From NCBI GenBank assembly GCA_018268355.1, contig JAFDWR010000001.1, positions 1,017,858-1,081,857 on the forward strand: a stretch of 64,000 bases of DNA, given 5' to 3'. The notes under the pieces were generated by a model that was given only the letters and a program-made list of their open reading frames with translations, was not told where the DNA came from and made no database searches. How positions within the stretch are numbered: the stretch's first letter is position 1; each line of letters starts with the position of its first letter. The translations under genes and the position numbers were made by a program. Positions 50,627 to 63,913 of the stretch are shown piece by piece. This stretch comes from Armatimonadota bacterium (GTDB lineage Bacteria; Armatimonadota; Fimbriimonadia; Fimbriimonadales; Fimbriimonadaceae).

Positions 50627-50827
50627 CTACATCAAAACGAAGATCGAATCCTCTGAATTTTCAGTGGACAAGTTCTCCTCGACTACTGAGCTGTCGGTGA
50701 CTTGAACTTGGAAGTAATCCTTACAAGTTGAGACGCCGAGCGAGAAAGCGTATCCAACTGTCAAGGATTCCATTACGGCTTGAATTGGCTCACCTGCATA
50801 GTCTCGGACTCCATCAATCTTAAACAT
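50627..50827 (-). CDS. Small acidic protein in the methylase/helicase operon
   Basis: The 66-aa product begins 'MFKIDGVRDYAGEPIQAVME' and ends in an acidic, Ser/Glu/Asp-rich tail ('SSVVEENLSTENSEDSIFV'). Its ATG overlaps the methylase stop by 8 nt and its stop lies 17 nt before the helicase, so it is an in-line operon member. The size and charge would suit a regulatory or bridging subunit, or a DNA mimic. No family recognised. Confidence 0.6.
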   Translation of the reverse strand: MFKIDGVRDYAGEPIQAVMESLTVGYAFSLGVSTCKDYFQVQVTDSSVVEENLSTENSEDSIFVLM

Positions 50828-53654
50828 CCTGGAGTACCTCAAGTTGCTCGGGAGCTTTCTTCCGTGACTTCTTGATCGGGTTCTTCGCTGGGGTGTTTGG
50901 CTTACTCGCAACCATCTTGGCGTACAGTTCGAAGAGCTTTTCCAACCGCTCGGTGTCGTTCTTGAACCTTCGCCCGATATAGATTCGTTCTAGCGTTTCA
51001 TCGTTCAGTTCATGAGCACGGCGAAGGTCGTCCGGCATGTTTTCCGGGTCGTAGAGGTCGGCGATGGTCTTGGGGAAGTGTCGCTCACGGGCGAGGAGGA
51101 TCTCCTCCGCGCATCGGGTGAGATCGGCCTTGTTTTGCTCGGTCAGCGTCGGAACCGGAAACGTGTTCCAGCCGAGGGTGTTCGAATACGAAAATCGCAT
51201 CTCAAGGCGAACGCACACAGAGCCAATCCACACCCAGTGAAGGCGCGACGCGATGAGGGCCATATTCCACAGTGGTGCGTCGTAGAGGGCAAAGTTTCGA
51301 TCGCCAATAACGGTTTCCGTACCCAACACGTCTACGGGAAGATACTGACGTGCCTCCGAGCTGACTCGTGGGATTACTATTGATTGATCAAAAGACCGAT
51401 GTCGAACTTCGCCAAAAGCATAAGGCTTTGCTGCCATTTCACGAGTCTGGGGTTTGTCACTTCCTAGCCTCATTCTCGTTACCGATCTGAGTCGATTTTC
51501 GATCTCAGAATAGGAGCGGGCATCGTCTATATGCTCCTCGGAAATCCACAGGCAGTATCGTCGTTTTCCGTTAATAAGCTCTTCCGAATTTGAATATCTC
51601 AAAATAATCGGAGCCAATCTCGGATGCTTTGCAAGGAGAGAATCACGCTCCTCGCCGCTGAAGAAAAGAGACCCTCCATCAACAGGTTTACTGCCGAAGT
51701 CCATGGGCTCCAGACTATTCAAGGGCTTGGCCGACTTCTCGACAATAATGTTTGGCCCCGAAATCAAGTACGGATTGATGTTCTCGCACCACTTAACGGA
51801 ATAGCTGTCCGTGTCTTTGAAATCCGTGAAAATCTGTCGTGGCTGCTTTGGATCGTTCGTGAAACCGACGATTACTACGGTGACCCCCGCCCGGTTGCTT
51901 GCTAGGTTCGCCCACTTGAATGAGGTGTAGGCGAACTGGATTTCTGCACCAAGTTTCAGCAGGGTCGGCCACAGGGTCGGAACTTGCTGTCCCTGGCATA
52001 TCGAGTTAGTTGCAACGAGAGCAGTTCCGCAGCGGGTCTTGATGCCGTACTCTGCCGCTTTGAGAAACCAGCCCGCAACATAGTCAAGGAGCTTCCAGTT
52101 TTTCACCTTGCCTGTAAAGACAGCCTGCATGTCGGCCTTTTGCTCCCTCGTTTGCCACGTCGAACCCAGATAGGGAGGGTTACCGCAGATGTACGTCTCT
52201 CCACCCTCAGTCTTGAACTCGATCCTGGGCTGATCGAGGGGTGTTTCGAAAAGATCATTTGCCGTCGAAATAATCGAAACGTCTTTGCTTATCGGCGGGC
52301 AGATCGTGGTCCAATCAAGCCGTAAGGCGTTCCCACAGACGATCCAGTTCTCCGCATTAAGAGGCAGGAACTCGGCGAGAGCAAGCTTCGGACCGCGATA
52401 GAGCACATCGCATTGGAACTCGGCGATGATAAGGGCGAGGCGGGCGACCTCGGCTGCGAAATCGCGAATCTCGATGCCCCGGAAGTTAGTGAGGTGGATA
52501 TCTGAAGCTCGATCAATTTCATTTCGCCTTCGGTTGATCTCTCCTTCGATGGCTCGCATCTCCTTGTAGGCGATGACTAGAAAGTTTCCCGAGCCGCAAG
52601 CCGGGTCGAAGACCCGAATCCGCGACATCCGCTCACGAAGTTTCAACAGACTTGGCTTGTGATCCCCCGCCCGCTCCAACTGCTCTCGCAGGTCGTCCAA
52701 GAACAGCGGGTTAAGCACCTTGAGGATGTTGGGCACGCTGGTGTAGTGCATGCCGAGTGAACCCCGTTCCTCATCGTCGGCCACGGCTTGGATCATCGAG
52801 CCGAAGATATCGGGGTTGATCTCCCGCCAATTCAGCCGCCCAGCCGCGAGCAGGTAGCTCCGGGCGATCTTGGAGAACTTCGGCGTTTCCGGATTCCCCG
52901 AAAAGAGCCCGCCATTGACATATGGAAAGCCAAGTGCATAGAGTGGCAAACCCGACTCGTCCCGGTCTGCAATCGGGGTGTTCATCGCTCGAAACATCTG
53001 TTCCAGCACGAGATGAGTGTTCGAACCGTCCCGCTCGGTCATCCGTTCGACGGTTGCCGTGAACGGGTGCGAACCGTGGAAAATGTCGGTGTCTTCGGCG
53101 AAGAAACAGAAGATCAGCCGCGCCAAGAAGTGGTTGAGGTCCGGGCGGCGGGCTTCCGTCGCCCAATCCGGGTTCTCCTTGAGAAGCTCCACATAGAGCT
53201 TATTCAGCCTTCCGGTCGCCCGAACGTCAATCGGGTTATCCTTGATCTCCTTGACCGTAGTGATGCCAGCCAGGGGAAGGAAGAACCCAACGTGATCAGC
53301 AAACTTCGCGAATTCGCTCGTAACGATCTCGCCTGACGTCAGCTCTTCGGCTTCTAGCGTCTCTCCGTCCGTAGCGAGGATGAACTTCGCTTTGCCTTGC
53401 GCGGTTTTGGGGCTGTTCTTGAGGGCGGTCAGCACTTGGCCAACTTCACCGACCGGGGCCACGGCAAGATGAATGTTGTTCCGCTGAAGCACTCCGTTCG
53501 GGATGTCCGATCCATTGGACACGCCCCTTCTCAACTTGGCAAGGGTGTTGTCCTTATTCCCAAAGGCGGCTAGGAACTGGTAGGGGAACTCTGCCGCATC
53601 GAAGGGGCAAGCGGCAAGCTCCGATAATGCTGCCTCGATCTCGACCGCGTTCAT
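50820..53654 (-). CDS. MmeI-like class I SAM-dependent DNA (adenine-N6) methyltransferase
   Basis: The 944-aa protein has SAM motif I 'FDPACGSGNFL' (349-359) and catalytic motif IV 'NPPY' (492-495), the adenine-N6/gamma-class order, followed by a target-recognition region and a C-terminal helical domain with a basic tail ('NPIKKSRKKAPEQ'). The N-terminal 150 residues resemble MmeI-type enzymes but 'KFILATDGETLEAEEL' does not show a clear D...ExK nuclease site. Cleavage is therefore probably done by partners. Start ATG 53654 with GGAGGG 8 nt upstream. First gene of the operon. Confidence 0.88.
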   Translation of the reverse strand: MNAVEIEAALSELAACPFDAAEFPYQFLAAFGNKDNTLAKLRRGVSNGSDIPNGVLQRNNIHLAVAPVGEVGQVLTALKNSPKTAQGKAKFILATDGETLEAEELTSGEIVTSEFAKFADHVGFFLPLAGITTVKEIKDNPIDVRATGRLNKLYVELLKENPDWATEARRPDLNHFLARLIFCFFAEDTDIFHGSHPFTATVERMTERDGSNTHLVLEQMFRAMNTPIADRDESGLPLYALGFPYVNGGLFSGNPETPKFSKIARSYLLAAGRLNWREINPDIFGSMIQAVADDEERGSLGMHYTSVPNILKVLNPLFLDDLREQLERAGDHKPSLLKLRERMSRIRVFDPACGSGNFLVIAYKEMRAIEGEINRRRNEIDRASDIHLTNFRGIEIRDFAAEVARLALIIAEFQCDVLYRGPKLALAEFLPLNAENWIVCGNALRLDWTTICPPISKDVSIISTANDLFETPLDQPRIEFKTEGGETYICGNPPYLGSTWQTREQKADMQAVFTGKVKNWKLLDYVAGWFLKAAEYGIKTRCGTALVATNSICQGQQVPTLWPTLLKLGAEIQFAYTSFKWANLASNRAGVTVVIVGFTNDPKQPRQIFTDFKDTDSYSVKWCENINPYLISGPNIIVEKSAKPLNSLEPMDFGSKPVDGGSLFFSGEERDSLLAKHPRLAPIILRYSNSEELINGKRRYCLWISEEHIDDARSYSEIENRLRSVTRMRLGSDKPQTREMAAKPYAFGEVRHRSFDQSIVIPRVSSEARQYLPVDVLGTETVIGDRNFALYDAPLWNMALIASRLHWVWIGSVCVRLEMRFSYSNTLGWNTFPVPTLTEQNKADLTRCAEEILLARERHFPKTIADLYDPENMPDDLRRAHELNDETLERIYIGRRFKNDTERLEKLFELYAKMVASKPNTPAKNPIKKSRKKAPEQLEVLQDV

Positions 53655-54077
53655 TGCGAGAGCCCTCCACATGGAGGCTGAGTTGGCTTCGGAAGAATCT
53701 GATCTACCCCAGAATCGTGTGTGATCGGGGCGGGCTTCCCTATGCCCTTTAGGACAGATGGCTTGCCGCTCTCGATGCGACGCCCAACATGCTGGCGGTC
53801 ACCTTGAAGCACAACGGAGGGGAATAAGATCTGCCCAAGGTGAATCCCTGCTCCCTTTGCCACCATCAGATTCCATGATAGCAGGTGGTTTGCGCTTTAG
53901 AGGCCCCGTCACCGTCCTCGTACTTTGGCCGGTGGCCATTTGGCCGCCAGAACTGCTAGTGCTTTTGGACGGGTTTATACTGGCCCGGACAGCCGACTGT
54001 CGAAAGTCGAGGCACCATTTTGGAGAAATTGAAGCGCTTGATGTGTGCGCTCATCGACATGTTTGATACGATAGTTT
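53655..54077. other. Intergenic region between methylase and glycosyltransferase genes
   Basis: The 423-bp gap probably holds the divergent promoters of both operons. A 71-aa minus-strand frame (53651-53866) ends with TGA overlapping the methylase ATG, but its composition does not suggest a known protein. A plus-strand frame of 102 aa (53758-54066) is also unconvincing. TACGAT lies 5 nt before the glycosyltransferase GTG and might be its -10 box. No copy of the tRNA 3' end was seen here. Confidence 0.4.
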
Positions 54078-57000
54078 GTGCCGTACTCACCGACCGCGTC
54101 CGCGAATCGTACGAAGGGAGGCCCAGCCCAGCCGGCCGCTTGCATCTGTGTCCATGACGACCACCAGTGGCTCGCGCCTACCATTCGCAGCCTACGGAGC
54201 CTTGTCGATCCCCACGTTTTCGTAAGCCGAGTGCCGTGGGCGAGTGAGCCCGGAAACTGGGAGGAGAGCGCCCGAATTGCAACCGAACTTGGGGCACAGG
54301 TGCACGTCGGTGACTGGTCGTCCGAGCTGGAGCATCGCCGGGAAGCGCAAGCCATTTTGCTCCACCAGGGTTACGGCAAGGCCTTCGTTTTGGATTCCGA
54401 TGAAGTCCTGAGCAAGGGTCTTCTCGACCATCTTGTCGCGATCGCAAATGGCAACCTGGCGGACGTCGTTTGCGTTCATATGCGCACCTATTGGAAGGAT
54501 GCAGAGCATGTCGTCGATCCCCCCGAGCGGCTGACTCCTCCCGTCCTCATCGACCTCCAGAACGCCCAGCACGTTCATATTCGCGAGTATGCCGGTCCAA
54601 GGCAGCTGACACTGAGTCCTTCGTTTGGGGTCTTGCACCACCTTTCCTATGCGGGTTCCGATGAGCGAATCAAGCGAAAGATCGGGACCTGGTCCCATCG
54701 GCACGAGCTTGTGGACCGATGGTATGAGCGTGTGTGGAAGGGATGGGCAGGCGACCCGCTCCTCACCGATGTTCACCCGACTCACCCTGCGGCCTACAAA
54801 ACCATCATCGCCACCAAGCTCCATCCCGACCTCGAGGAAGCTGGAATTGTGCCCACGCCGGCCCCAGCATTTGATCTCCCGGCGATTTGGCCCAAGATCT
54901 CAGTGATCATTCCCGTCTACGGTGGACAGGATGACCTCGACGATTGTTTGCGGAGCCTTAAGGACTGTGCAGGGCTTTTCTCAGAGCTGATCGTGGTCGA
55001 TGACGCTTCGCCTGAACCCGTCAGCGCGACCTCTGCGACTCAACTAATCCGTCGAGAGACAAACGGCGGATTCGCCGCGGCGTGCAACACCGGCATCAAA
55101 GCATCAACGGGCGAGGTCGTAGTGATCCTCAACTCGGACACCTGCGTTCCTCGGGCGGGCTTCTACCGACTCATCGAGACGCTGATGACGAGCGGGTCGA
55201 TTGGCGCGGCCGGCCCGATCTCGAACTATGCCGGTTACCACCAGTACCTCGGGCGAGACCTCGCTGCCGATGAGAGCATGGAGCTTCTGTCCGTTGATTT
55301 GGCCGAGAGTTCGCGCCATGACCGCGACGTCGAAATGCTGGTTGGGTTTTGTGTGGCCATTCGGCGAGCGGTGCTGGACGAAGTTGGACTGTTTGATGAG
55401 GATTTTGGGCGTGGCTTCTTCGAAGACACCGACCTCTCCTATCGCATCCTCCGCGCGGGGTACCGGCTTCGCCTTGCGAACCGAGCATTCATTTATCACA
55501 AAGGGTCAAAGACGTTCGCTCGGGAGAGGATTTCCGCGCAGAGCCTGCTCAGTGTCAATCAAGCCAAGTACCGCAAGAAGTGGCAGGACGACCTCGAATC
55601 TGGCTTCGCGAGTCACCTTTCGGGGGAAGATCCATCGCCGATTGTCTTCAGAGAGGACCGCCGTCCAGATGTCATCACCAGGGAATTGAGGCGGCTTTGC
55701 GAACGGGCTGAAGTTTCCATCTGCATGATCGTCCGCAACGAGGAGCGGGTCATAGGCGATTGTCTAAGTTCGGTGGCTCCTTACTTCAGCGACATTGTTG
55801 TCGTCGACACGGGGTCTACCGATCAAACCGTGGAGATCGCAAAGAGCTTTGGTGCCCGGGTGAGCGAGATCGTTTGGCCAGATTCGTTTGCCGAGGCGCG
55901 GAATGAGTCCCTGAGGCTCGCCAATGGCCGCTGGATCTTTTGGATCGACGCCGACGATACCATTCCCCTCGCGACCGCCGAGGCGGTGATTCGCGCCGCA
56001 AGCTCGGCTTCGCCGGAAACGGCAGGGTTTGTCATTCCGGTCCAGTTTGTCGATGGTGAAATTGGCCAGGGGACCCGGGTTGACCACGTCAAGCTCTTTC
56101 GAAACCTCCCCGGTGTTCAGTTCGAGGGCAGGATCCACGAACAGATCCTTTCGTCGCTGCGTCCTCACGGAGAGATCGCGCGGCTGGAGGGAGCGGTGGT
56201 GCTTCACACCGGATACGACACGAGTCAAACCGGCCAGGCTAAGAAGCGAGAACGTGATTGGCACCTCCTCGAGCTGGACCTCAACGACCGTCCCAATCAC
56301 CCCTTCGTTCTGTTTAACATTGGCATGACTCATCGCTTCACGGGTGAGCACGTGCAAGCGATCGAGGCGCTTGACCGATGTTTGTCGGTCAGTGGCCCGC
56401 ACGAGTCGCACGTGCGAAAGGCCTTTGTCCTTCGCGGGAACTCTCTGCGGGCGATGGGCCGGCGAGAGGAGGCACTCGAAACCTTTCAACGTGGATTCGA
56501 GCTTGCGCCGGATGACCCAGAGCTCAGATTCCTACAGGGCCTAACCCAAATGGAGTTGGGTCGCCCATTGGAGGCTATCCACGCTTACGAGACGATGCCC
56601 GTTGACGCTTCTGGATTCTTCAGCAGTTTCGACGTCGGGATCCTGGGCCCGAAGCGAAATTTCAACCTTGCCGCTGCCTATTGGGCAGCCGGCAACTACG
56701 TGAAGGCAAGGGAGCTCTGGCGGCAGTGCAACTGGAAAGAGGCAGCAGAGGTCTTCTTCGACGCGGCTCTGCAGGTTGGGGACTTGGAACATGCGTCTGG
56801 AGCACTGAAGGTCATCAATCAGGAGTCTGGACTTGGGATCGAGTGGGCGGAGCGTTTGGTACGTTTCCACGAGACCCTCAACGGCCGCGAGGCTCAAGAC
56901 ACCGACCTGATCCAACTCCTTCAATCCAATCCCGGATCGTGGGGATTGACGCTGATCTGGGCGAGGCGACTCTGCCGCACCGGACGCTCCTCGATGGCGA

Positions 57001-57245
57001 TGGAGCACCTGGTTGAGCTTGCAAGCGGCGGTGTCGCGGAGGCAGCATATTATTTAGCGTTGATTAGTTTAGAGCTTAACAAACCTGAGGAGGCTCAGCA
57101 GTGGGCGCTGCGAACACTCGAACTCGATCCAGGTAGCCCGCAAGCAAATGAAGTGCTACGCAGAATCGCAGAGCCTTCGTCAGATTCAAGTGAACCTAGT
57201 CCGTGTACTTCTGAACCAAATGACAATGACGTGGAGATTGTTTAA
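54078..57245 (+). CDS. Triple-module glycosyltransferase with TPR-like C-terminus
   Basis: The 1055-aa protein has three GT-A-type modules: a divergent one at about 20-250 with D106-S-D108 ('AFVLDSDEVLS'); a classical GT2 at about 273-480 ('VSVIIPVY'-like start, N352-S-D354, 'FFEDTDLSYRILRAG'); and a third at about 545-720 ('ICMIVRNEERVIGDCLSSVA', D624-A-D626). Residues about 735-1030 form TPR-like helical repeats ('LFNIGMTHRFTGEHVQAIEA'). Module three plus TPR is the arrangement of SunS-type peptide glycosyltransferases and many surface-glycan enzymes. Start GTG 54078. It is followed 2 nt later by a NifU-like gene and then a Cys-rich peptide gene, which suggests a protein or peptide acceptor. 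Confidence 0.88.
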   Translation: MPYSPTASANRTKGGPAQPAACICVHDDHQWLAPTIRSLRSLVDPHVFVSRVPWASEPGNWEESARIATELGAQVHVGDWSSELEHRREAQAILLHQGYGKAFVLDSDEVLSKGLLDHLVAIANGNLADVVCVHMRTYWKDAEHVVDPPERLTPPVLIDLQNAQHVHIREYAGPRQLTLSPSFGVLHHLSYAGSDERIKRKIGTWSHRHELVDRWYERVWKGWAGDPLLTDVHPTHPAAYKTIIATKLHPDLEEAGIVPTPAPAFDLPAIWPKISVIIPVYGGQDDLDDCLRSLKDCAGLFSELIVVDDASPEPVSATSATQLIRRETNGGFAAACNTGIKASTGEVVVILNSDTCVPRAGFYRLIETLMTSGSIGAAGPISNYAGYHQYLGRDLAADESMELLSVDLAESSRHDRDVEMLVGFCVAIRRAVLDEVGLFDEDFGRGFFEDTDLSYRILRAGYRLRLANRAFIYHKGSKTFARERISAQSLLSVNQAKYRKKWQDDLESGFASHLSGEDPSPIVFREDRRPDVITRELRRLCERAEVSICMIVRNEERVIGDCLSSVAPYFSDIVVVDTGSTDQTVEIAKSFGARVSEIVWPDSFAEARNESLRLANGRWIFWIDADDTIPLATAEAVIRAASSASPETAGFVIPVQFVDGEIGQGTRVDHVKLFRNLPGVQFEGRIHEQILSSLRPHGEIARLEGAVVLHTGYDTSQTGQAKKRERDWHLLELDLNDRPNHPFVLFNIGMTHRFTGEHVQAIEALDRCLSVSGPHESHVRKAFVLRGNSLRAMGRREEALETFQRGFELAPDDPELRFLQGLTQMELGRPLEAIHAYETMPVDASGFFSSFDVGILGPKRNFNLAAAYWAAGNYVKARELWRQCNWKEAAEVFFDAALQVGDLEHASGALKVINQESGLGIEWAERLVRFHETLNGREAQDTDLIQLLQSNPGSWGLTLIWARRLCRTGRSSMAMEHLVELASGGVAEAAYYLALISLELNKPEEAQQWALRTLELDPGSPQANEVLRRIAEPSSDSSEPSPCTSEPNDNDVEIV

Positions 57246-57247
57246 CG

Positions 57248-57535
57248 ATGAATTATGTTGGCATAGGTGGTGAACCTGGAGAGGGTCGATACTTCGTATT
57301 GCGGGTCGCGGAGAAGGAAGCCCTTGTCGCTGAAGCGACATTTGAATCCAACGGTTGCATCGTGATCACAGCCGTCGGGCAGTGGCTTTGCCAGTTCATT
57401 CTCGGCCGCAAGGTTAGCTTGCTTACCCAGCTAGATTCAAATGATCTCCGGGTGTTATACGGCACTGTGCCTGAGGGCAAAGAATACGCACTATTTTTGC
57501 CAGCAGAGGCACTAAAAAACCTGAAACCGTTGTAG
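57248..57535 (+). CDS. NifU-N-like fold protein lacking cluster ligands
   Basis: The 95-aa protein matches the NifU/IscU N-terminal fold: 'VAEATFESNGCIVITAVGQW', then 'ILGRKVSLLTQLDSNDL' and 'GKEYALFLPAEALKNL'. IscU uses three cysteines; here only C37 of 'NGC' is kept. The first site reads 'GGEPGEGRY' and the third has Tyr (Y80) for Cys, so Fe-S scaffolding is unlikely. C48 is extra. It lies 2 nt after the glycosyltransferase stop and 23 nt before the peptide gene. It may act as an adaptor or carrier for the peptide; that is inference. Confidence 0.65.
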   Translation: MNYVGIGGEPGEGRYFVLRVAEKEALVAEATFESNGCIVITAVGQWLCQFILGRKVSLLTQLDSNDLRVLYGTVPEGKEYALFLPAEALKNLKPL

Positions 57536-57558: not shown

Positions 57559-57807
57559 ATGCCGAATACAGGAATCCCTTCTTTTCCAGGTTCAATGAGC
57601 GGGTCGGGTGGTAGTGCCTCAGGAGCTACTGCAAGTAGTTGCCCAATGAATAGTTGCGGCTGCAATTTCCAGGAGGGCGGCGCAGGTGATCCGTGTGGTT
57701 ACGGTTACTTGTTCTCGCCCTTGCCTTCGCCCGGAATGGTTTTTCCAGCCATTTGGGGGGCTAAGACACAGCAGATTGAGTGCCTCCAGATTCCAAACGG
57801 AATCTGA
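57559..57807 (+). CDS. Small Ser/Gly-rich, Cys-containing protein; candidate modified peptide
   Basis: The 82-aa product has a Gly/Ser/Thr block (about 11-27, 'GSMSGSGGSASGATASS') that could carry O-glycans, a cysteine cluster C28, C33, C35 ('CPMNSCGC'), C46 and C75, and aromatic residues around 'GYGYLF'. It sits directly after a peptide-type glycosyltransferase and a NifU-like gene, 78 nt before the RHS gene. A glycosylated RiPP-like or surface peptide is a plausible reading. The alternative, an unrelated small structural protein or a broken 5' piece of the RHS gene, is not excluded. Weak ribosome site. Confidence 0.55.
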   Translation: MPNTGIPSFPGSMSGSGGSASGATASSCPMNSCGCNFQEGGAGDPCGYGYLFSPLPSPGMVFPAIWGAKTQQIECLQIPNGI

Positions 57808-57885: not shown

Positions 57886-60800
57886 ATGGAATCCGCAATT
57901 CGCCTCGGAATCACCAACGACGGCTCCCGCCGCCAGCCCTACACCGCTTCGCCCGAACCGATCACCGGAGACCTCGTCGTTGACCCGGGCATTATCCTGA
58001 ACGCGAAGGGTTTCAACCTCTCCGTCGAGTTCTACTACAACGCCAAGTCGAATACGAACTGGGTTTACGGTCAGGGTCGATCGGCGAGCGTCAACACGTT
58101 CATCCTTACGGGAAACGCTTCAGTGGGCGCGGTCATCATCCGAGGCGACGAGTCGAACGTCGCCTTCAGCGTCTCCGGCGGCGTGTATGTGGCGCAGAAC
58201 AGCCAGTATTCGGGATCCACGCTCACGTTCAGCGCAGGCGTCTTCACCGAGACTTTCCCCGACGGAACCCAGATCGTTTACAAGGATCAGGGCAAGCCCG
58301 TTACCCCAGAAGGGTACGTCACGTACCAGGTGTCGCAGGTCGCCGATGGCTCCGGGGTCACCCACACCTATACCTATGGTTCGGGTTCCGAACTTGGATA
58401 TCTAAAGTCCATCACGTTGCCGGGTGGGAACGTCGTCACCTTCACCTACGCATCCTCGAAGCTCTCGAATGTAACCGACTGGACGGGGCGGGTTTGGACT
58501 CTCCAATACGATGCTTCGAGCTATCTGACCACCTTCACGACGCCGCTCGGATGCTCGACCAAGTACACCTACGCGAACGCCGGGGCAACCGTCCCGATGC
58601 TCAACGTGATTGAGGATCCGCGAGGCTATCGCACCACGTACCAATACGACTCTTCTCAGCGCGTGGTGTCGATGGCGGCGGGTTCCGCCATCTGGACCTA
58701 CACCTACTCCAACACCGCGCCGTTCAACTCAGCCGCAATTCTTCCGACCGGGGCGATCACAACCTACATCACTGACGGAACCCAGCTCGTCACATCCGAG
58801 CAGATGCCCGAAGGCTACACGGCCACCCACAGCTACGATGCCAAGCGCCGCAAGGTCAAGACTGTCACCCCGGCCGGAGAGGTCCTCAGCGTTGTCTACA
58901 ACGATCGCAACCAGATCACCGTCTCCGTCGATCCCCTTGGAAACCGCACCACTTATCAATACAGCACCGCCAACGACCTCACGACCCAGATTGACGCCCT
59001 CGGTAACATCTGGTCGTTCACTTATGACGCGAATCATAACCTGACGGTCAGCGTCGACCCGCTTGGACGTCGAACGACGAACACCTATAACGCGGACGGG
59101 ACGCTCAAGACGAGGCAAGATGCTCGCGGCCTTGTCACGACCCTCAGCTATGACAGCTTCGGCAACGTCGTGAGCGTCATCGCGAGCGACGGCGCGATCA
59201 GCACGACGGTTTACGACTCGCTCAATCGGCCCACGGTCAAGATCGACCCTCTCGGGCGTCGGACGACGATGGCCTATGACGTTGGCGATAACGTCATCTC
59301 GATGACGAATGCCGCCGGAGAGACCACGCGCTTCATCTACGACGGATGCTTGCAGGTCGCGACGGTAGATCCGCTCGGCAATCGAACGACGACCACCTAC
59401 AACCGCTGGGCGAAGCCTGCCACGGTGCAAAACCCGCTCGGGTTCGTCACGACGATGAACTACGACTCGATGGGCTATCAGGTCGCCAGCGTCGACGCGC
59501 TCGGCAACATCAGCACCACGGTCTACAACTCAGCCCACCAGGTGATCGCCTCCCAGGATGGCTTGGGCTACCTCACGACCTATGGCTATGATGCCGCCGC
59601 AAGGCAGAACTCGGTCCAAAACGCACGTGGTTTCATCACCACCACGATTTACAACGCACGCGATGCGATCGCAACGCAAGACGCCCTCGGCAACCTCTTC
59701 ACGGTGGTTTACGATGCGCTCGGACGGCGAGTCGCCTCCCAGACCGCGCTCGGGTTCAGGTCGACCACTGTGTATGATGCTGCAGGTCAGGCGATCGCCT
59801 CGATCGACCCGCTTGGCTTCATCACCACGATGACGTACAACGCGAACGGCCAGTCGGAAACCGTGAAGGATGCCCTCGGCAACGTCACCACCACCGTCTA
59901 CAGCTCAACCAGCAACCGCGTGATTGCAAGCGTTGACGCGCTCGGATTCCGAACGACGATGAGTTACGACATTGCAGGGCAACAGACGGCAATGCAAAAT
60001 GCTCGCGGGTTCCTTACGAGTTTCACCTACGATCTCGCCGGCCGGCAAAAAACCGTTCAAGACGCTCTAGGCTTTGTGACCACCAGCATCTACGATGGCG
60101 ATGGACGTCCGCAAGCCATCATGGATCCGCTGGGGCGGATGTCGACCACGGTTTACGATGCGGCGAGTCAGAGCATCGCCGAGATTAGCCAACTTGGCTT
60201 CATTTCGACCTCGGTCTACGACGCGCTCGGAAGGGTTCAGGCGTCGGTCGATCCGCTTGGCAACCGAACGACTCAGGTGTTTGACGCCAGGGGCATGACG
60301 GTGGCCAGCATCGATGCTCTTGGCTTCCGAACGACGTTGTCTTACGACTCGGTCGGAAACAGGACCGCTCAGCAGAACCCACGGGGCTTTGTCACGACGA
60401 TGGTCTACGATGGTCGTAATCGGCAGCAATCCCAGACCGATCCTCTTGGCTTCATGACGACGCAAGCCTATGATGCCGATGGCAGGACCATCAGCACGCA
60501 AACTCCTCGGGGCGGCTTGATCACGATGACCTATTCCGCGCGATCGGAATTGCTCTCAATCGGCAACGAACTCGGTCAGATCACCACCTACACGTTTGAT
60601 GGTGTCGGGCGACCCGTTACCCGCAGGTTTGCAAATGGTGACGTGACCACGACCACCTACTCAGCGAGAGGTGAGGAAACCCTCCGGCAATACAAGGATG
60701 GAAGCCTGGTCACCCAGGTCTATGACGCTGTCGGCAACCGTACCCAGCTCTCGGACTCGACTGGAATCACGACCTTCAGCTTCGACGCCGTGAACCAGAA

Positions 60801-61581
60801 CACCGGCAAGACGGACCCTGGGCCTCTTGTGCAAGCCTACGTCTTCGACGGTGCTGGTCAGCGGACGAAGCTCACCGACCCCGATGGGTTGGTGACGACT
60901 TTTGCCTTTGACGGCAACGGTAGGCTGATGAGCATGACATCCGGGAGCGGCGGGCAAGTGCTTTTCACATTTGACGCTGCAGGTCGAACGACGATGCAGT
61001 CCTTTGCCGCCGTCGACCGCACGAGGACGATGGGCTTCGACGCAAATTCCCAGCTCCTTTGGAATCGAGACTTCAGGACCGGACAGGACATGCAAATCCT
61101 GACCTACACCTACGATGGCAACGGGAACCGAACCAGCCAGCAGGGTGCTGGTGAAGCAATCACGACTTACACGATGGATGCCAAGGATCGGCTCACTCGT
61201 TCGCAACGTTCTGGCGTCGGCGGATTTGACTACAACTTCACCTATGACAGCATGGACAACATGACGGTGAACGGAGAGTGGTCACCAGTGGCGACGCAAA
61301 CCTATGACGCTGCAAACCGGATCACGACGATTCTTCAAGGCTCGGTCATGACCACCATCACGTTCGATGCGAACGGTAACCAGTCGATTGTGAACGAGGG
61401 TGGCTCAATCACGACGAACACCTACGACTTCGAGAACCGTCTTAAAGTTGTTCGCAAACCGGATAACAGCTTGGTGACAATGTCGTATAGTGGAGATGGT
61501 CAGAAGCGCACCCAAGTTTCTGGCGCATCGGTGACGACGTTTGTGTGGGATGGAACGGACTACCTTCAGGAGAGAAGCTAA
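57886..61581 (+). CDS. RHS/YD-repeat protein, N-terminal and repeat part
   Basis: The 1231-aa protein begins without a signal or membrane segment; residues 1-160 form a beta-rich N-terminal region ('PITGDLVVDPGIILNAKGFN'). From about 160 to the end YD repeats of the type 'TTVYDALGR' and 'DPLGNRTT' form the RHS shell. Between about 345 and 885 the period is an even 21 residues. The protein stops just after 'FVWDGTDYLQERS', before the conserved RHS core; the core is in the next gene, whose ATG overlaps this stop (TAATG). RHS proteins encapsulate and deliver C-terminal toxins or act in adhesion. The route of export is unknown. Confidence 0.88.
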   Translation: MESAIRLGITNDGSRRQPYTASPEPITGDLVVDPGIILNAKGFNLSVEFYYNAKSNTNWVYGQGRSASVNTFILTGNASVGAVIIRGDESNVAFSVSGGVYVAQNSQYSGSTLTFSAGVFTETFPDGTQIVYKDQGKPVTPEGYVTYQVSQVADGSGVTHTYTYGSGSELGYLKSITLPGGNVVTFTYASSKLSNVTDWTGRVWTLQYDASSYLTTFTTPLGCSTKYTYANAGATVPMLNVIEDPRGYRTTYQYDSSQRVVSMAAGSAIWTYTYSNTAPFNSAAILPTGAITTYITDGTQLVTSEQMPEGYTATHSYDAKRRKVKTVTPAGEVLSVVYNDRNQITVSVDPLGNRTTYQYSTANDLTTQIDALGNIWSFTYDANHNLTVSVDPLGRRTTNTYNADGTLKTRQDARGLVTTLSYDSFGNVVSVIASDGAISTTVYDSLNRPTVKIDPLGRRTTMAYDVGDNVISMTNAAGETTRFIYDGCLQVATVDPLGNRTTTTYNRWAKPATVQNPLGFVTTMNYDSMGYQVASVDALGNISTTVYNSAHQVIASQDGLGYLTTYGYDAAARQNSVQNARGFITTTIYNARDAIATQDALGNLFTVVYDALGRRVASQTALGFRSTTVYDAAGQAIASIDPLGFITTMTYNANGQSETVKDALGNVTTTVYSSTSNRVIASVDALGFRTTMSYDIAGQQTAMQNARGFLTSFTYDLAGRQKTVQDALGFVTTSIYDGDGRPQAIMDPLGRMSTTVYDAASQSIAEISQLGFISTSVYDALGRVQASVDPLGNRTTQVFDARGMTVASIDALGFRTTLSYDSVGNRTAQQNPRGFVTTMVYDGRNRQQSQTDPLGFMTTQAYDADGRTISTQTPRGGLITMTYSARSELLSIGNELGQITTYTFDGVGRPVTRRFANGDVTTTTYSARGEETLRQYKDGSLVTQVYDAVGNRTQLSDSTGITTFSFDAVNQNTGKTDPGPLVQAYVFDGAGQRTKLTDPDGLVTTFAFDGNGRLMSMTSGSGGQVLFTFDAAGRTTMQSFAAVDRTRTMGFDANSQLLWNRDFRTGQDMQILTYTYDGNGNRTSQQGAGEAITTYTMDAKDRLTRSQRSGVGGFDYNFTYDSMDNMTVNGEWSPVATQTYDAANRITTILQGSVMTTITFDANGNQSIVNEGGSITTNTYDFENRLKVVRKPDNSLVTMSYSGDGQKRTQVSGASVTTFVWDGTDYLQERS
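58917..60540 (+). repeat. Tandem 63-nt coding repeats (YD/RHS units)
   Basis: About 25 diverged units of 21 codons encode TT-x-YD-x-x-G...D-x-LG-(N/F)-x-T. Some units have 'ARGF' in place of 'PLGF'. They are in frame with the RHS gene and are protein repeats, not CRISPR. Confidence 0.8.
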
Positions 61582-62510
61582 TGCCTGTAACGAACTTTGT
61601 GACCGCGAACGGTCAGGTGCTCTGTGAGACGACAACGGGCTCGGGGACCGTATATTATCATCCAGACGCCCTCGGTAACGTCACCTGCGCCTCTCAAGGC
61701 AAGACGGTCCAAAAGGCGACCTATACCCCCTACGGTCAGGGGACGAGACCGGCAATGGCGAAGCTTGGCTGGGTCGGTGCCTGGGGCTATTACCCGACCA
61801 ACCTGTCGACGCCGAGCCACTACGTCAGAGCAAGGCACTTTGACAACCTGCGCGGGATATGGGCAACCCGGGATCTGCTGTGGCCGAGGCAAAGCGGCTA
61901 TGGTTACGTGAATGGCCGCTTGATTGTGGAAGTGGACCCATCGGGTCTATGGCCCACTAGGCAATCGCGGACCGTTAACGTACCGACGCCACCGCCTCTT
62001 CCGCCACAGCCACTTACATGTTCAAAGGAGTGGAATGAGTACGTGTTTGGACTTTGTTGGTACGCGAGTAAACATACTGGTGCTCAGGGTCTATGCAACT
62101 ATTACGCGTCTGCATATTACCAAATTTGCCGAAAGCCGTCCCGTGGTTGTGATACGCCACAGAACTGGGTTCCAATGGGCAAGGCCGGCATCGCACCAGA
62201 ACCTTTCGATGAAGCCCTTGCTCGAGAGCAGGAAAAGAAATACTGGGAGAGTCAGGCGAGGTATGACAAGGCTCCTCCACGTTACAAAACCATCTCTGGC
62301 CGACCTTGTTTCAAGATCCTGCAGCCTGAAGGCGCGACCGTCGTAGTGTTTCCTATTCCGCTTGGAGCTTGCTATGCTTGTTGTCAACGAACCTTTACTG
62401 TAAGCAAGCTCATATCAGACTGCGAGTTTGACTGCTGGACCGCATTCCTAATTCTAACTCAAAATGGCATAAACCAGTTTGAGCCACCGCAGCGGATTTT
62501 GGTAAAATGA
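61581..62510 (+). CDS. RHS core with variable Cys-rich C-terminal domain (candidate toxin)
   Basis: The 309-aa protein starts 'MPVTNFVTANGQVLCETTTG' and carries the RHS core: 'YYHPDALGNVTCAS', 'YTPYGQG', 'HYVRARHFDNLRGIWATRD' and 'GYGYVNGRLIVEVDPSGLWP' (D119-P-S-G-L123, the usual self-cleavage boundary). After a Pro-rich linker (135-144) comes a variable domain of about 165 residues with 11 cysteines (C147 to C285), unlike toxin families I know. Splitting the core from the repeats is unusual, but the same split recurs at 63913/63920. A small lipoprotein gene follows. Confidence 0.78.
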   Translation: MPVTNFVTANGQVLCETTTGSGTVYYHPDALGNVTCASQGKTVQKATYTPYGQGTRPAMAKLGWVGAWGYYPTNLSTPSHYVRARHFDNLRGIWATRDLLWPRQSGYGYVNGRLIVEVDPSGLWPTRQSRTVNVPTPPPLPPQPLTCSKEWNEYVFGLCWYASKHTGAQGLCNYYASAYYQICRKPSRGCDTPQNWVPMGKAGIAPEPFDEALAREQEKKYWESQARYDKAPPRYKTISGRPCFKILQPEGATVVVFPIPLGACYACCQRTFTVSKLISDCEFDCWTAFLILTQNGINQFEPPQRILVK

Positions 62511-62525
62511 AATAAGGATGAGTCT

Positions 62526-62945
62526 ATGAAAATGATCCAGATTAAGTGCCTCTTCCCCATCGCGTTTTCTGTTCTGATCGGCTGCGGAGGTCAAGCTATA
62601 GCTCCGGGAGAGTACAAAGTTGACGCAAAGGCAAGTACTGTACTAGCGCCCGGTCTGGGTGAATCAGCCCTCGTATATGTCTTCGAAAGTGGTGGTAGAT
62701 GGTCGTACGCAAAGGGCTTTGCAACGGGTTCATGGAGCCCGTCAGAAAATGGTATGATTCAGGTGAAGCTTGCCGAAGACGAAAGGAGCAGCTTTTATCG
62801 CAAGGTCGTGAATCTGAATCGCGGAGAGCCCGCAGATTCTGATAAGCCAATCTTGTTCAAAATACAGAGCTCTAACACAATTCTATTTGACATGAAACAG
62901 CGTTATGATTCCAATTCGAAGTACCTAGTGTTGCGAAGGTCTTAA
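62526..62945 (+). CDS. Small lipoprotein, possible immunity protein
   Basis: The 139-aa protein has a lipoprotein signal 'CLFPIAFSVLIGCGGQ' (lipobox LIGC) and a small mature domain of about 115 residues. It lies 15 nt after the RHS core/Cys-rich gene, on the same strand, in a stretch visibly richer in A and T than the RHS genes. That is where an immunity gene to an RHS toxin is expected, and a lipoprotein would suit a toxin acting in the periplasm. Function is inferred from position only. Confidence 0.55.
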   Translation: MKMIQIKCLFPIAFSVLIGCGGQAIAPGEYKVDAKASTVLAPGLGESALVYVFESGGRWSYAKGFATGSWSPSENGMIQVKLAEDERSSFYRKVVNLNRGEPADSDKPILFKIQSSNTILFDMKQRYDSNSKYLVLRRS

Positions 62946-63103: not shown

Positions 63104-63913
63104 ATGCTCTCCCAGTTCGACGTCTTTGCAACTGCTGGCGCTCAATACAAAGGCGTGATCCGCGAGACGGATGCGACTGCAGACGGAGCTGGAAAGATCA
63201 CGCTGGCGTTTACATCGGTGACTGACCTTGCGGCGGTTAATGGTGTCGAGATCATCCCTTACGCTGTTTACGATCAGGAGAACAGACTCACCGGAGTGGC
63301 CAACCCCGGCATCACGGCGGGTTCTCCCTCGAGGATCAACGTCGGCGGACCCAAGGTCTCAACCTACGCCGAAGATCCGGGTGCTAACGTGATCTGGGGC
63401 GAGATGGTGTGTGACAACACCGTTTCTGCGATCGACAAGTCGGGGGCAACGAATCCCGCTCCTGATGACGTCTATCGAAGTCTGCGGTGGGGTCCATGCC
63501 AGATGACGGTGGCCGAGCTCGTCCCCAGTCGCCAGTACAAGGTGAGGTTCCACTTCATCGAACCGACCTGTACGGCGGCGGGGCAGCGGGTGATGAGCCT
63601 GCTCATCAACGGTACGACGGTCAACGCTTCTTATGACATTTACGCCTCGGCGGGCGCGAGGTTCAAGGTGAACATCCAGGAGTTCCTTGCCAATGCAGAC
63701 GCTAACGGCAAGATCGTGGCCGAGACCGGTGTGATCACAAACGCACCGATCTGGTACGGGCTCGAGGTGATTGACAATACGGCGAGCACGCCAAGCGTTT
63801 CCTTGGCGACGACCTACACGTATTCCGGGGATGGTCTGAAGCGCTCTGAGGTCGCGGACGGAGTCACGACGACGCTGGTCTGGGATGGAACGGACTATCT
63901 GGGCGAGGTTTAA
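63104..63913 (+). pseudogene. 5'-truncated RHS-associated protein with malectin-like domains
   Basis: The frame encodes 269 aa. Residues 1-50 ('LSQFDVFATAGAQYKGVIRE') are the C-terminal half of a malectin-like carbohydrate-binding domain whose N-terminal half is missing. A complete malectin-like domain follows (about 77-227, 'YKVRFHFIEPTCTAAGQRVM', 'INGTTVNASYDIYASAG'). The end, 'LATTYTYSGDGLKRSEVADG' to 'VWDGTDYLGEV', matches the end of the RHS gene at 61581. A stop (TAA 63101-63103) lies immediately in front. It looks like the tail of a larger RHS gene left by recombination. Confidence 0.6.

Follow-up and report, generated by a model that had tools for sequence, protein, structure and literature searches.

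The window is the whole stretch of DNA that was analysed, 64,000 nucleotides in length, and it carries on its forward strand a run of genes in which a degenerate NifU/IscU-fold protein (hereafter dNifU) is encoded between a glycosyltransferase and proteins built from RHS repeats. The dNifU open reading frame (57248..57535, +) specifies 95 amino acids, with its ATG at 57248 and its stop codon ending at 57535. Directly upstream lies the gene for a GT-TPR protein of 1055 amino acids (54078..57245, +) containing three Glycos_transf_2 (family-2) stretches together with TPR repeats. An adjoining glycosyltransferase had been reported in an initial sequence-only reading of this DNA, and the gene was found to end 2 nt before the dNifU start. 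When compared with the peptide glycosyltransferases of NCBIfam, this GT showed weak similarity to MftF (115.8 bits, cut-off 280) and SunS (80.8 bits, cut-off 350), scores so far under the cut-offs that they indicate general GT2 kinship only.

Between dNifU and the RHS genes is an ORF for a Gly/Ser/Pro/Cys-rich peptide of 82 amino acids (57559..57807, +), to which related ORFs are present in other loci. Viewed as a possible RiPP pathway, the locus offers a peptide ORF and a GT gene, while the window peptide gave a best Pfam match at E 0.73 and none in NCBIfam, and belongs to no known precursor family by those searches. It is followed by RHS-A (57886..61581, +), a shell protein of 1231 amino acids with 25 RHS_repeat stretches, and by RHS-B (61545..62510, +), a separate ORF made up of the final RHS/core portion and a Cys-containing tail that is not RHS. 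An inner ATG of RHS-B, at 61581, shares one base with the RHS-A stop. The RHS-B tail matched no family over cut-off. The window neighbours display RHS repeats together with a separate variable C-terminal tail, as RHS polymorphic systems do. After RHS-B comes a candidate lipoprotein-like ORF of 139 amino acids (62526..62945, +), again without a family over cut-off.

Two further features of the window were recorded. A stand-alone ORF at 63104-63913 contains a malectin domain and terminates in an RHS-like end sequence, 'TLVWDGTDYLGEV'; it resembles the end of an RHS cassette that has been displaced. Upstream of the cassette, at 50820-53672 on the reverse strand, lies a gene for an MmeI-type restriction-modification protein.

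Fold and ligand positions of the window protein

IscU is a nearly universal scaffold, and its three cysteines are taken as its definition. The sequence-only reading had seen an IscU/NifU-N fold in dNifU, and this assignment was examined by profile search and by structure prediction. The Pfam family NifU_N (PF01592) was the sole family at E ≤ 10 for the window protein, with 22.3 bits (E 1.6e-4) against a cut-off of 22 bits, a borderline score that became 20.5 bits, and so below the cut-off, in the genome search. The match is nevertheless not due to chance, since 37 of the 39 members of the dNifU family alignment matched NifU_N (best E 8.7e-25); each of four NCBIfam IscU/NifU/SufU models was likewise matched by 30 to 36 of the 39 aligned members at E ≤ 0.01. 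An AlphaFold2 model of the window protein, built with 39 sequences, was obtained with a mean pLDDT of 97.0 and a pTM of 0.88. Comparison of this model with the PDB by Foldseek returned IscU/NifU-type chains for all of the first 37 matches (E ≤ 0.001), the best being 3lvl (E 2e-6, TMq 0.76), while VIA-align superposed it on human ISCU2 (8pk8) with a Z-score of 12.5 over 94 residues and an rmsd of 2.4, the top rows again all being IscU-type. Note that SufE was absent among the 50 VIA-align matches listed, which excludes nothing. On the predicted structure, the window protein is of the IscU/NifU-N fold, as first proposed.

Alignment of the three cysteine columns with canonical SufU placed Glu12 (57281..57283, +) at ligand position 1, a Cys in IscU and SufU, together with Cys37 (57356..57358, +) at position 2 and Ala81 (57488..57490, +) at position 3. 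Two of the three cysteines are therefore missing in the window protein and the middle one is kept, in agreement with the earlier count of two non-cysteine positions. In the same alignment Arg14 stands where canonical SufU has the accessory Asp, two residues past ligand 1, and the His preceding ligand 3 is replaced by Tyr80. The Lys of the (P)EGK loop is present at position 78 (57479..57481, +). The window protein is also without the N-terminal helix 1/'NPRN' segment that most relatives possess.

Ligand pattern, descent and spread of the subfamily

A set of 110 aligned rows was scored by genomic context, and the 66 in which an RHS protein, recognized by its similarity to the window RHS-A, lies at most 2.5 kb downstream were termed RHS-linked. 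These 66 rows represent 65 distinct loci, because one stretch appears twice, as L089 and as L133. Ligand 1 was acidic in 53 of the 66 rows, Asp in 32 and Glu in 21, the others being Gly (6), Gln (3), Ala (2), Arg (1) and Cys (1), and the accessory Asp was retained in just four. Ligand 2 formed the most conserved column, with Cys in 66/66 RHS-linked rows and in 57/57 non-redundant ones. Ligand 3 was Cys in 27 rows (26 of the 65 distinct loci), Tyr in 16 and another residue in 23. The second most conserved column was that of Lys78, found in 56 of the 57 non-redundant linked rows, in which Gly11 and Gly13 were likewise invariant. That Cys37 and Lys78 are so conserved despite loss of the ligand set indicates that the former cluster pocket remains a conserved site. 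The initial description of a fold stripped of its ligands fits the window copy, but does not fully extend to the family, where the middle Cys is always kept and a Cys at ligand 3 is common enough to appear in the 26 loci counted above.

One interpretation of such a pocket is that it binds a single Zn or Fe ion through Asp/Glu at position 1, Cys at position 2 and His/Asp plus Cys at position 3, as a carrier or a structural site. The exchange of the first Cys for Asp or Glu in 53 of the 66 rows is in keeping with a metalloprotein of this kind, and four possible ligands are present in 20 rows and three in another 20. However, the remaining 26 rows offer two or fewer, the window copy combines Glu12 and Cys37 with Tyr80 and Ala81, and conservation peaks at Cys37 and Lys78 and not at a ligand set. 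A metal-binding role is therefore considered unlikely.

Canonical rows with both Cys1 and the Asp numbered 27, two of them weak second matches, which leaves 25 distinct rows. Neither an RHS protein nor a GT was found near any of these 25 IscU/SufU genes, two of which lie at contig ends. Other departures from the canonical ligand set were seen beside desulfurase-like genes. In L107 and L112 (around 7001), an Acidobacteriota NifU-N gene right after a desulfurase-like gene keeps ligands 1 and 2 and has Ala or Gly at ligand 3, the opposite of the dNifU pattern. In L108 and L110 (7001-7354), from MAGs titled Alistipes and Oxalobacter, IscU genes lie directly 3' of a desulfurase-like ORF and read 'SPEIGQV' or 'TTAIGQV' in place of 'CGD', so that ligand 1 and the Asp look lost despite a normal-looking ISC operon.

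A tree was built without the ligand columns from 88 rows (24 with Cys1, 64 without) and 112 columns, a small number, with many forks unresolved. Presence of Cys1 required two changes on this tree compared with a shuffled mean of 21.3, and all Cys1 rows but one, the canonical ones, formed one clade (SH-aLRT 96), a result that is consistent with a single origin of the subfamily in which ligand 1 is lost. Homologues with all three ligands had been named in the sequence-only reading as grounds for abandoning its proposal, and one RHS-linked relative of this type was identified, L063 (Cys-Pro-Cys-His-Cys), which is also the exception on the tree. Yet it is nested among the rows lacking Cys1 and is still without the Asp, and its three-Cys state therefore looks secondary.

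The window protein is the most divergent row, with the longest end branch (2.89) and an unsure placement, and, given in addition that it has neither a close relative nor helix 1, this copy could be drifting. For dNifU in related locus pairs with finite dS, a group that does not include the window copy, dN/dS was 0.03-0.19. On these substitution ratios, ligand loss is best described as a family trait under purifying selection, and the earlier idea of a repurposed scaffold is a plausible one. The alternative of a decaying Fe-S scaffold relic, carried along beside RHS genes, would suit a window copy that is short, divergent, devoid of helix 1 and depleted of ligands, but the substitution ratios are low, matches occur in 35 of 101 genomes, pocket residues are strictly retained and the synteny recurs. 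It is given very little probability, and on dN/dS and spread the relic reading was rejected.

The 35 genomes with matches to the window protein, among the 101 searched, include its own, and at least two of the matches (L070, L071) are canonical SufU. Relatives were named in Fimbriimonadaceae, Chthonomonas and other Armatimonadetes MAGs, and the trait spans several families of Armatimonadota. Profile matches reached six, five and four per genome (G165, G011 and G178), of which some may be canonical.

Within Planctomycetota, 217 of 392 genomes matched query P0001. Among 32 loci examined, 30 from this search plus two plasmid loci (one Bacillota), two were without Cys1. One is a Planctomyces plasmid relative with Gln at ligand 1, flanked by glycosyltransferases. 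The other, Planctomycetota locus L212 (L182 of the P0001 set), has in succession GTs, dNifU, a GT2 whose start is rich in Cys, and then an RHS protein of 1426 residues up to the locus end. Together they indicate that the link between C1-less dNifU and GT/RHS genes crosses phyla, although the sample outside Armatimonadota is small. An earlier Planctomycetota search with query A1 had matched 10 of 149 genomes at E ≤ 1e-27, and the three loci inspected all had Cys1. The 41 pattern matches in viral contigs included no relative; five distant matches came from phage records and 29 from plasmids, and of the two plasmid matches examined one was C1-less and one canonical. Another query of plasmids, made later, had no match, and a genome-contig scan with the single window protein found no relative.

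Recurring gene order and the Cys-rich module

The relatives repeat the order GT(-TPR), dNifU, Gly/Pro/Cys-rich peptide, RHS-A shell and RHS-B core with variable tail, and tandem dNifU-peptide-RHS units were found in L064 and L128. The RHS partner and the peptide, neither of which featured in the sequence-only reading, are the main clue to the role of dNifU. A GT was detected near 39 of the 66 RHS-linked rows, on the same strand in 34 and on the opposite strand in five, with the window GT serving as the only reference for the comparison and some contigs being short. These data would also fit a GT adaptor or subunit that recruits the RHS protein or the peptide as substrate to the GT-TPR enzyme, without thiol chemistry. 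The 2-nt spacing in the window and the flanking glycosyltransferases on the Planctomyces plasmid and in L212 point the same way. Against this are the five GTs on the opposite strand and the 27 rows in which none was found nearby, the RHS/peptide side being the more constant, and an adaptor would leave the invariant Cys37 unexplained. Such a function is judged improbable, slightly more so than metal binding.

Seventy linked loci had at least one candidate peptide ORF, which in 58 started no more than 45 nt from the dNifU stop and in 25 overlapped that stop, with a start at -4 in 17. Translational coupling is therefore likely. The adjoining ORFs also lend indirect support to a possible binding of peptides, the example of a new role offered in the sequence-only reading. 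Selection of the candidates used a scoring scheme that favours G, P and C, and so their composition alone is no evidence; the case for the peptide is made by gene order, by overlap and by the substitution pattern of close pairs. In the four closest-alike pairs (L140/L141, the L064 tandem copies, L041/L050 and L040/L050) peptide dN/dS was 0.06-0.20, and in most other locus pairs the peptide is far more diverged than dNifU. An N-terminal [LVIP]P[FYW] motif occurred in 22 of 58 peptides against 1.7 in shuffled ones, and in six of 26 against 0.5 in a later set, whereas a C-terminal motif was clearly enriched in the first-seen set only (13 of 26 in the later set against 9.0, shuffle maximum 16); both regexes were chosen after looking at the peptides. 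No association was detected between the ligand-3 state and the number of peptide cysteines (p 0.65). Six peptides contain by eye a Hint-like domain, of a self-processing type (L038, L053, L127, L139, L158 and L168), five of which were found by regex, and the three that were scanned gave weak Hint- or intein-type Pfam matches below the cut-offs.

Where no separate peptide ORF is nearby, some RHS proteins themselves start Cys-rich, with nine cysteines in L121 and L212, five in L116 and four in L124. The L098 RHS start has five as well, and the remaining RHS starts mostly have 0-2. In a few linked loci the peptide was missing from the vicinity and the RHS start was not Cys-rich either, for example L151 (0 Cys). 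At the other end of the cassette, the RHS-B ORFs differ from one another in their tails, and two RHS-B are present at some loci, as is the case in polymorphic systems. The RHS-B tails of L045 and L049 contain HEESH and HEAKH, which we take to fit an HExxH metallopeptidase-like motif.

Proposed role and comparison with known systems

The remainder of the Fe-S machinery in the same genome was then considered. SufB and SufD (PF01458, two places) are encoded elsewhere from dNifU, and a search with PF02657 (SufE) located one place, on a different contig and so not dNifU itself, with 47.3 bits and thus over the cut-off. No canonical SufU or other U-type gene was found in this genome (97.7% complete) by PF01592 or with a SufU query. 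The scanned neighbours of dNifU, namely the GT, the peptide, RHS-A, RHS-B and the MmeI-type protein, include no desulfurase and no ISC or SUF component. With SufB, SufD and SufE elsewhere and no other U-type gene, dNifU is unlikely to be needed as an Fe-S scaffold, and an ordinary scaffold was ruled out by the ligands, the gene context and the location of these Suf genes.

IscU and SufU are desulfurase partners, and the sulphur-acceptor cysteines described for SufU and ISCU are ligands 1 and 3. Given that partnership and an invariant Cys within an IscU fold, dNifU could be imagined as a sulphur carrier whose Cys37 persulfide passes sulphur to the Cys-rich peptide. However, it is precisely the acceptor positions that are lost, the scanned window genes contain no desulfurase, and the window copy is without the N-terminal segment. 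There is little to recommend a sulphur carrier, which is held to be less probable than the GT adaptor.

The best reading is that dNifU has ceased to be an Fe-S scaffold and is now an accessory dedicated to RHS exoproteins. Synteny gives good support to such an accessory role in the RHS system, which is very likely. Because parts of the site that holds the cluster have been lost and the gene recurs beside a GT, a Cys-rich peptide and an RHS shell, dNifU has probably taken on a new function in the production of that shell. The full account, in which it left Fe-S assembly and now serves a combined GT and RHS exoprotein system, is the explanation we favour as a whole, at slightly under even odds.

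How dNifU might act is a more tentative matter, although an action as a peptide chaperone seems nearly as credible as the full account. The protein would bind the Cys/Gly/Pro-rich module encoded next to it, whether a separate peptide or the RHS N terminus, through the former cluster pocket. The module is the nearest recurring partner, its gene often overlaps that of dNifU and it occurs either as a free peptide or as part of the RHS start, and the sole residue never lost from dNifU is a thiol; on these grounds we infer the binding step. Against it speak the three or four possible metal ligands kept in 40 of the 66 rows and the number of peptide cysteines, which is not related to the ligand-3 state. 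Once bound, the thiols of the module may be kept reduced, or the module unfolded, for instance through transient mixed disulfides with Cys37, and the hold would last until the RHS shell is closed and the GT has acted. The pocket, made up mostly of Asp/Glu with the invariant Cys and the near-invariant Lys, might hold or covalently tether the peptide during shell closure and glycosylation, and dNifU would amount to a dedicated thiol-bearing chaperone for the RHS leader or plug. That the subfamily as a whole constitutes IscU-derived, cluster-free thiol chaperones for the Cys-rich leaders or plugs of RHS shells is a bolder proposal, and a somewhat doubtful one.

A conserved subfamily of this kind would show how an Fe-S scaffold turns into something else, and RHS proteins would perhaps acquire a new type of assembly factor. 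The subfamily also carries a warning for annotation, as the Planctomyces plasmid relative with Gln at ligand 1 is labelled 'iron-sulfur cluster assembly scaffold protein'. Proteins of this fold form a known family; the combination of a lost ligand 1 and a kept ligand 2 in a protein associated with an RHS cassette was not found in print in the open-access literature searched. Among the papers listed there, none dealt, by title and the start of the abstract, with a link between NifU/IscU and RHS proteins or between Armatimonadetes or Fimbriimonadaceae and RHS proteins, and neither 'NifU' nor 'IscU' is mentioned in the portion of the large polymorphic-toxin survey covered here (PMC3482391).

Among known systems, the IscU/NifU-N/SufU family (PF01592) shares with dNifU the fold over its whole length, profile matches that are family-wide though weak, and the ligand-2 Cys with the Lys loop. 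It differs in that dNifU has lost ligand 1 and the Asp and varies at ligand 3, in that no canonical row examined is RHS-linked, and in the absence of helix 1 from the window protein. SufE, a sulphur acceptor, is comparable in that its core is IscU-like and contains one functional Cys; this Cys is however located in the ligand-1 loop, whereas dNifU keeps ligand 2.

The cassette as a whole resembles the Rhs/YD-repeat polymorphic toxins (PMC3482391, PMC11461821) in having an RHS shell and a core with a variable tail, further ORFs downstream that repeat such tails, and Hint-like domains near the RHS protein. According to one of these reports, the N-terminal helical domain of Tse15 is an internal chaperone of its RHS cage and some Rhs effectors rely on separate chaperones (PMC11461821), so that help from an N-terminal element is not without precedent among RHS proteins. 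Note, however, that Tse15, as described there, has its chaperone domain built in, while in the cassette studied here the shell is preceded by an IscU-fold protein encoded on its own and by a Cys-rich peptide.
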